A stretch of 64,000 nt of DNA from positions 177,929-241,928 of the forward strand of contig JAOZFT010000004.1 of the NCBI GenBank assembly GCA_027492035.1. Reading direction: 5' to 3'. The position numbers and the translations under genes were made by a program. This stretch comes from Thermoproteota archaeon (GTDB taxonomy: Archaea > Korarchaeota > JAOZGF01 > JAOZFZ01). Shown here in pieces: positions 44,844 through 54,386 of the stretch (its first letter is position 1; every line of letters starts with the position of its first letter). The notes beneath the pieces were generated by a model. It saw only the letters and a list, made by a program, of their open reading frames with translations, did not search any database and had not been told where the DNA came from.

Positions 44844-44971
44844 TGGGGTCGGAGGGATTTGAACCCTCGATCTACGGGTGCCTTCGAAACAACAGAAACT
44901 AATCATCCCTTTTTAGGTCATCGCACCAGTTCTCTGGAGCCCGGCGCCCTACCTGGCTAGGCCACGACCCC
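44844..44971 (-). tRNA. tRNA-Trp (CCA) with a 54-nt intron
   Basis: Acceptor GGGGTCG/CGACCCC, D arm GCCTAGCCAGGTAGGGC, loop CTCCAG-A with anticodon CCA, T arm GAGGG-TTCAAAT-CCCTC. The intron (44880-44933) follows position 37. Pair 27-43 is a C-U mismatch. Euryarchaeal tRNA-Trp introns carry a C/D guide RNA; here two GATGA sequences occur in the intron but no convincing box D (CTGA). Confidence 0.88.
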
Positions 44972-46481: not shown

Positions 46482-46567
46482 GGGCCCGTAGCGTAGAAAG
46501 GAAAACGCACCGGCCTCCTAAAAACAGAGAAAGCCGGAGAACGCGGGTTCAAATCCCGCCGGGCCCG
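46482..46567 (+). tRNA. tRNA-Arg (CCU) with an 11-nt intron
   Basis: Acceptor GGGCCCG/CGGGCCC, D stem GCGT/ACGC, anticodon stem CCGGC/GCCGG, loop CTCCTA-A with anticodon CCU, T arm GCGGG-TTCAAAT-CCCGC. The intron (46521-46531, AAAACAGAGAA) is at the canonical site after position 37 and is among the shortest possible. Confidence 0.9.
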
Positions 46568-46583: not shown

Positions 46584-46691
46584 GCGGGGGTTGCCGAGCC
46601 AGGTCAAAGGCGCCAGTGAAGGGTGAGACTTAAGATCTTTTAAAGAAATCTGGTGAGAAGCTCTTCGTGGGTTCGAATCCCACCCCCCGCA
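46584..46691 (+). tRNA. tRNA-Leu (UAA) with two introns, one inside the anticodon stem
   Basis: Type II tRNA: acceptor GCGGGGG/CCCCCGC, long variable arm, T arm GTGGG-TTCGAAT-CCCAC. The anticodon stem CCAGA/TCTGG forms only if an 11-nt piece (46617-46627) is removed between stem positions 30 and 31, and a 13-nt piece (46635-46647) after position 37. The mature loop is then CTTAAGA with anticodon UAA. Exact boundaries may shift by one or two bases because adjacent bases repeat. Confidence 0.85.
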
Positions 46692-50222: not shown

Positions 50223-50307
50223 AGCCCCGTGGTGTAGTGGTCAAGCATGACGGACTCTGGACCAGGGGAGAAATCCGTTGACCTCGGTTCGAATCCGAGC
50301 GGGGCTA
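50223..50307 (+). tRNA. tRNA-Gln (CUG) with a 12-nt intron
   Basis: Acceptor AGCCCCG/CGGGGCT, D stem GTGT/GCAT, anticodon stem ACGGA/TCCGT, loop CTCTGG-A with anticodon CUG, T arm CTCGG-TTCGAAT-CCGAG. The intron (50261-50272) follows position 37. Confidence 0.9.
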
Positions 50308-53835: not shown

Positions 53836-54159
53836 CTAAGACGTCCTTTTTAAAGTTATTTCAATTAATGAAACGTTCCTTTCTCCTCCCTCCCCACCTG
53901 TTAAAGTTTCTGTTCCTATTGTCACATTTGACACTTCTACGGCGTCCTGCAGAAACCTATTTTTTGTTATTTCTGCTACATCCACTGCTTTGCTTATTGA
54001 TTTGCCTCTAGCCTTTATAATTACTGAATTTTTCCCTTGGTTAAATTGCAGAACAGTTGCTAATACATAATTCATAGTTGGTGTGCGCCCGTGTCTTTTA
54101 AAAACTATAGATCACGGATTACGCCCAATATAGATTTCTCCAGCTTCTTCACTAGTCAC
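53836..54159 (-). CDS. albA: Chromatin protein Alba, predicted to be interrupted by a 36-nt intron
   Basis: Two exons: 54119-54159 and 53836-54082. Exon 1 starts with GTG 54159 (GGAGGTG 7 nt upstream; ATG 54165 is possible) and encodes VTSEEAGEIYIGR plus two bases of a Lys codon. Exon 2 completes that codon and encodes PTMNYVLATVLQFNQG...ARGKSISKAVDVAE to the end. The joined protein has 95 residues, normal for Alba, and contains the conserved IGRKPTMNYVLA. Without splicing, translation stops at a TGA after GRNP. Read alone, exon 2 would give a 79-residue protein lacking the first beta strand and the DNA-binding Lys. Alba coats DNA and RNA. Confidence 0.88.
54083..54118 (-). other. Predicted bulge-helix-bulge pre-mRNA intron in alba (36 nt)
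   Basis: On the coding strand the junction folds as follows: outer helix TTGG/CCAA (exons), 4-bp helix GCGT/GCGC (exon 1 with intron end), 3-nt bulges AAT and ACA on opposite strands, and inner helix CCGTG/CACGG closing a 19-nt loop. This is the strict substrate of archaeal splicing endonuclease. Cleavage after the second base of each bulge gives AA|A = Lys. The intron has an in-frame TGA. Confidence 0.87.
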
Positions 54160-54386
54160 GTGCATACACCTCCATCTTTTTTCCTGTTCCTTTGAATGCT
54201 CTGACAATGTTTTGAAATACCTATTTATTCCTTTATAAAGGTTTCCTTTATGTTAAAAAGGTTTTATTTTCTTTTAAAAGATGAAAGATGTTATTGCCTT
54301 ACTTTCAAAATGAGCCTTTCTTCAGCAAGAAAGTAGGATATCCCTTTATGGCTTCATTAATAAAAACGTTTTGGAAGGATCTTTTC

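Follow-up and report, generated by a model that had tools for sequence, protein, structure and literature searches.

How does an archaeon make its Alba protein when the reading frame of the gene is broken by 36 nt? The question is raised by a 64,000-nt stretch of DNA from a Thermoproteota archaeon (the window; its genome is called G000 here), where alba lies on the minus strand at 54159-53836. As the preliminary description had stated, the frame is interrupted at 54118-54083 and the insert contains an in-frame TGA (54114-54112). Read along the minus strand from 54173 to 53836, the locus consists of GGAGGTG, a GTG start, 13 codons, two bases of a Lys codon, the 36 nt, and 247 nt up to the end of the stop codon. 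We conclude from the sequence, with a probability of about 0.9, that the 36 nt are a bulge-helix-bulge (BHB) intron in the alba mRNA, which would be cut by EndA and joined by RtcB.

Table 1. Features of the alba locus and of an intron-containing tRNA gene in the window. A slash within a bulge marks the predicted cut.
Feature	Position	Strand	Evidence or remark
GGAGGTG ribosome-binding site, 7 nt before GTG	54167..54173	(-)	G001 has the same site and spacing
alba 5′ exon, likely starting at GTG	54119..54159	(-)	encodes MTSEEAGEIYIGR and the first two bases of a Lys codon
Outer helix, 5′ strand TTGG, exon 1	54125..54128	(-)	fold, register analysis
Central 4-bp helix, 5′ strand GCGU, exon 1	54121..54124	(-)	fold, register analysis
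5′ bulge AA/U, predicted cut after 2nd base	54118..54120	(-)	fold, register analysis
Predicted 36-nt BHB intron	54083..54118	(-)	fold, cut register, shuffle test
Inner helix, 5′ strand CCGUG, intron	54113..54117	(-)	fold, register analysis
Inner helix, 3′ strand CACGG, intron	54089..54093	(-)	fold, register analysis
Central helix, 3′ strand GCGC, intron	54085..54088	(-)	fold, register analysis
3′ bulge AC/A, predicted cut after 2nd base	54082..54084	(-)	fold, register analysis
Outer helix, 3′ strand CCAA, exon 2	54078..54081	(-)	fold, register analysis
alba 3′ exon including the stop codon	53836..54082	(-)	contains a 79-aa open frame from an internal ATG (54075)
tRNA gene, 12-nt anticodon-loop intron	50223..50307	(+)	regular BHB: 4 central pairs, two 3-nt bulges

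Together with its flanks, the insert can form a regular BHB: the outer and central helices have 4 pairs each and the inner helix has 5, the two 3-nt bulges are opposed, and the central helix includes one G.U. The three pairings and both bulges had been named in the preliminary description; all are present, and the minimum-energy RNA fold keeps them at each of the three lengths tried (52, 67 and 101 nt). Fold energy alone is weak evidence: it is modestly better than that of shuffles at 52 and 67 nt (6/200 and 5/200 shuffles as good) and unremarkable at 101 nt (42/200). The register of the cuts, in contrast, constitutes strong evidence at the level of the sequence. Among 684 BHB-like pairings in 301 nt, that of alba ranks first by its sum of inner and outer pairs (9, the next having 8). 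The single cut pair tried that yields GEIYIG[RK]KPTMNYVLA, a product judged from the sequence, is the pair of standard bulge cuts, bearing out the earlier claim that joining AA/A at these positions rebuilds the Alba N-terminus. When the exons were held fixed and the intron letters were shuffled (mononucleotide), the central and inner helices reappeared in the same register in 39 of 200,000 shuffles. An insert of 36 nt is too short for a ribozyme intron, and no Rfam match to a group I or II intron was obtained, all eight matches in the window at the gathering score being tRNA. A second copy of the alba intron was not found in the stretches searched, where the best other match spans 17 nt (E 0.002).

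With the 36 nt removed, the joined frame encodes 95 residues that cover positions 2-66 of the 66 in PF01918 and score 112.4 bits on NCBIfam TIGR00285 (cut-off 88.25), as a member of the Alba family does. The junction-spanning peptide is predicted to be IYIGRKPTMNYVLATVLQF. The product of the 5′ exon matches MASEAEIGEIYIGK of G001, a genome of the same family, and MASDVGEIYIGRK of the protein P0002. The ribosome-binding site of the preliminary description stands, but its ATG start at 54165 lies just 1 nt after GGAGGTG; the GTG at 54159-54157 is the likelier start, since G001 has an ATG at equal distance from an identical GGAGGTG. The predicted intron splits the codon of residue 14. Query residues 7-93 align with chain residues 10-96 of 1y9x and 2bky, an offset that places residue 14 at position 17 of Sulfolobus Alba 1. 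In Alba, Lys16 and Lys17 contact DNA, and Lys16 is acetylated.

We compared Alba genes across genomes. Among 61 genomes, 56 gave a total of 63 Alba matches. All but two of these start at profile position 1-4, the late-starting pair belonging to G000 (position 8) and G001 (position 12). Two further screens, both covering small phyla only, gave 10 matches in 5 genomes (4 already counted) and 33 matches in 33 of 36 genomes (1 already counted), all starting at position 1 or 2. In the named-genome collection scanned, 43 of 44 alba loci are uninterrupted in the region of the G000 site, a scan that used second-exon peptide patterns and thus sampled only close relatives. The exception (L044) is JAOZFL010000110.1 of Thermoproteota archaeon isolate Flange_M5_B4, the same sequence region as in G001.

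The alba gene of G001 is interrupted too, by a different insert of 62 nt, not a multiple of three, which follows the A of the ATG after KPT, 8 nt downstream of the G000 site. Here a BHB with central helix CCAC/GTGG and bulges AAA and UAU matches one in-frame cut pair, although three cut pairs give the identical protein because of repeated letters. This BHB is weaker, with two inner pairs and one outer pair beside the central helix and a strong hairpin further in. The minimum-energy fold contains the central helix at 86 nt, while another pairing is preferred at 106 nt, and 121 of 200,000 shuffles were as good. A close relative, P0002 (94 aa, 81% identical), lacks an interruption and has the full N-terminus MASDVGEIYIGRKPTMNYVLA. 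Over 78 shared positions, identities number 65 between G000 and P0002, 66 between G000 and G001, and 69 between P0002 and G001, so that the uninterrupted P0002 falls among the interrupted albas. The inserts of G000 and G001 may represent separate gains, or a gain followed by sliding and loss; the sequences fit both.

The proposed enzymes are encoded in G000, RtcB at full length and EndA (C9:442893-444032) as a single 379-aa frame with two N-terminal and two catalytic Pfam modules. The first half of EndA matches 2zyz_A and NEQ261, and the second half is closest by sequence to the archaeal splicing endonuclease chains 2cv8 and 3p1z. Endonucleases of Korarchaeota are alpha4 or alpha2 according to the available part of PMC4090602. 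The RtcB gene of another genome, G017 (L102/L104, contig C181), shows a frame break near the contig end that none of the top BHB pairings inspected restores, and which is probably a sequence error. Five extra-long tRNA genes of G000 were tested for an anticodon-loop intron. Regular geometry was found in one (50223-50307), likely a substrate of EndA by its predicted structure; the tRNAs at 46482-46567 and C9:447817-447911 have 3 of 4 central pairs, and those at 44844-44971 and 46584-46691 gave no convincing anticodon-loop intron arrangement. The extra stretch of the 128-nt tRNA match at 44844-44971 (-) contains GATGA motifs, which we take to resemble C/D-box elements.

Two other genes of G000 are broken in a similar manner. 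Outside the window, glyA, encoding serine hydroxymethyltransferase (L132), is interrupted by 34 nt at C9:442602-442569 (-). Its BHB, GCAG[AG/U]...CUGC[AG/G], joins HRYAE/GWPGERVYAGCKYIDE and so restores a conserved motif, and none of 200,000 shuffles was as good. The insert is absent from G001, where the site reads GCAGAGGGCTGGCCCGG and differs from the joined G000 DNA by a single base. The glyA gene is unbroken in the 11 other genomes having a match (1 of 13 genomes has none), and the protein alignment took in 5 of 12 relatives. The cbf5 gene is broken by 23 nt at C9:310022-310044 (+), with a BHB that joins GTL/DPNVTG and a cut that falls between bases 1 and 2 of the aspartate codon, which is the crenarchaeal cbf5 intron site as given in the accessible text of PMC2738675. 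In G001, G002 and G017, inserts of 15, 15 and 22 nt, respectively, lie at this site and have a BHB (loci L106, L107, L108 and L111 cover cbf5). Possible introns are indicated by a frame break at this site in G024 and by stop codons within the cbf5 match in G009, G011 and G023, and the cbf5 gene of G004, a phylum-mate, is uninterrupted. From their sequences, the glyA and cbf5 breaks are likely to be of the same kind as that of alba. Together with the different insert in the G001 alba, these breaks of the same geometry strengthen the intron reading of the preliminary description.

We scanned the assembly for BHBs that rejoin a reading frame. On a 666-kb contig, alba and glyA share the top score. 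Over 1,317,917 bases, the true register exceeded shifted registers only at scores of at least 33 (5 versus 0-2), with no excess at scores of 25-31. Over 1,566,566 bases with introns of up to 100 nt, glyA and alba were the top two, no threshold gave an excess over shifted controls, and cbf5 was absent among the 60 matches listed. As they show no overall excess over controls, the scans single out individual cases without establishing such introns as a genome-wide class. They covered 84% of the assembly and yielded no further confident BHB case in a coding sequence among the candidates that were read, which are a minority of the lower-scoring ones. A homology screen with 425 G004 frames above 80 bits, covering half of G004 with its glyA outside that half, returned cbf5 as the sole excess insert besides a fused-gene case; this screen is blind to alba, whose first exon is too short. 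The fused-gene case, a 134-nt excess at C9:106577-106460, arises because G004 has as one fused gene what are two genes in G000. Other candidates were also rejected: C9:121424 (third in the first scan, 31.0) and C9:569596 (29.0) were judged from reading the sequence to be two neighboring genes each; C16:18950, C9:374466 and C9:280047/280057 are colinear open genes; and split matches at C9:318-322.4 kb were judged from the sequence to be spurious frames on rRNA. Two other high-scoring sites stand as candidates, C21:41340-41469 (34.0, 130 nt), which scores slightly above alba and glyA in the 1.32 Mb scan, and C12:95352-95276 (33.0).

Could the gene be expressed without splicing? Translation might begin at the internal ATG (54075), leaving the upstream piece as a relic. 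The resulting 79-aa frame is open and passes the NCBIfam Alba cut-offs alone, but it begins at PF01918 position 12 (covering 12-66) and thus lacks positions 1-11, including those of Lys16 and Lys17. No GGAGG-like site precedes this ATG, whereas GGAGGTG stands at the same 7-nt spacing before the upstream start in both G000 and G001. The first exon keeps GEIYIG[RK]K in these two genomes, and the longer GEIYIG[RK]KPT is retained in G000, G001 and P0002, which argues against a relic. We consider unspliced expression of this form quite improbable. Recoding is less probable still: because 36 is a multiple of three, ribosomes reading through one TGA would remain in frame, and alternatively they might hop over the 36 nt, but read-through cannot explain the frame-shifting 62-nt insert of G001 or the 34-nt insert in glyA, and neither form of recoding accounts for a BHB in exact register. 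Hopping is compatible with the sequence, if improbable.

The least probable account is an assembly or sequencing error, or a gene decaying in one strain. The assemblies are indeed fragmented (42 contigs for G000 and about 220 for G001), but the 79-aa protein is recorded from six contigs, and errors do not leave a base-paired insert that sits in exact register and joins cleanly. Decay is countered by the substitution pattern. Over 75 joined codons compared between G000 and G001, pN is 0.115, pS 0.803 and dN 0.124, with synonymous sites saturated, and this sequence comparison indicates that the joined alba frame is under purifying selection. The preliminary description had raised an intact second alba beside a decaying copy as one result that would speak against an intron. 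No second Alba gene was found in G000, which has one Alba match and is 93.29% complete, so that a missed second alba is possible but not indicated; the joined frame, with its dN of 0.124 against a pS of 0.80, does not resemble a decaying copy.

By far the best reading of the sequence is that the alba insert belongs to a known kind, the archaeal pre-mRNA BHB introns: a coding sequence is interrupted, and the joined protein matches its family. Splicing of crenarchaeal cbf5 has been established experimentally; the introns in Sulfolobales and Desulfurococcales measure 16-44 nt, and cDNAs agree with the predicted bulge cuts (PMC2738675, available part). The same source mentions putative introns predicted by others in further protein-coding genes and lists cbf5 of Korarchaeum cryptofilum without an intron (its Table 1). 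In the accessible portion of a 2020 report, cbf5 is the only known archaeal mRNA BHB intron besides that of the HVO_1309 leader (PMC7714728). As far as these two partial sources go, they agree with the earlier statement that coding BHB introns are rare and that cbf5 is the classic case. Our search of titles and abstract openings, whose coverage leaves out most subscription journals, turned up no paper describing an alba or glyA intron in archaea.

Like the cbf5 introns described in the available text of PMC2738675, the predicted alba intron is short, lies in coding sequence, has BHB borders, splits the codon of a key residue and is predicted to be cut between bulge residues 2 and 3. It differs in its host gene and in having a regular BHB with both helices, whereas most crenarchaeal cbf5 BHBs are unconventional (PMC2738675, same part). 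The crenarchaeal splicing enzyme is hetero-oligomeric, while both EndA modules of G000 reside in one 379-aa frame. In Haloferax volcanii, EndA removes 46 nt from the 5′ UTR of HVO_1309, likewise through a BHB in an mRNA; unlike in alba, that intron sits in an untranslated leader and breaks no reading frame (PMC7714728, as far as available). Archaeal tRNA introns at 37/38 share the 4-bp central helix between two 3-nt bulges but sit in a non-coding host RNA.

On the intron reading, EndA would cut each 3-nt bulge after its second base, and RtcB would join AA/A, rebuilding the Lys codon at the Lys17 position of Sulfolobus Alba 1. Whole Alba would then be made only from spliced mRNA, and the cell would presumably depend on splicing. 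Translated without splicing, the mRNA would yield a peptide of about 15 residues if the upstream start is used; the best alternative would be the 79-aa protein from the internal ATG, without the first beta-strand region and the Lys16 and Lys17 positions. Gene callers do begin alba at the internal ATG and miss the real N-terminus (79-aa P0001, 78-aa P0003).

New here are alba and glyA as hosts, the presence of three introns of this kind in G000, the finding that the cbf5 intron extends to relatives of G000, and a sign that alba gained introns separately. Should the introns of alba and glyA be spliced, tRNA-splicing enzymes maintain the messages of a chromatin protein and of a core metabolic enzyme, at least one genome has three coding BHB introns, and related genomes that have or lack such introns can be compared to study their gain. 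Tentatively, and at slightly less than even odds, we propose that coding introns of the tRNA type are now being gained in this lineage: twice independently in alba, in two genera of the same family at positions separated by 8 nt, and once in glyA, in G000 alone. EndA and RtcB might then constitute an evolving mRNA-splicing system, and the introns might persist at essential residues, in their codons or motifs, positions at which an imprecise loss would not be tolerated. As a minor observation, the intron-bearing glyA and endA are divergent neighbors in G000 (C9:441543-444032), and in G001 (C209) and G017 (C7), too, they are found near each other on one contig.
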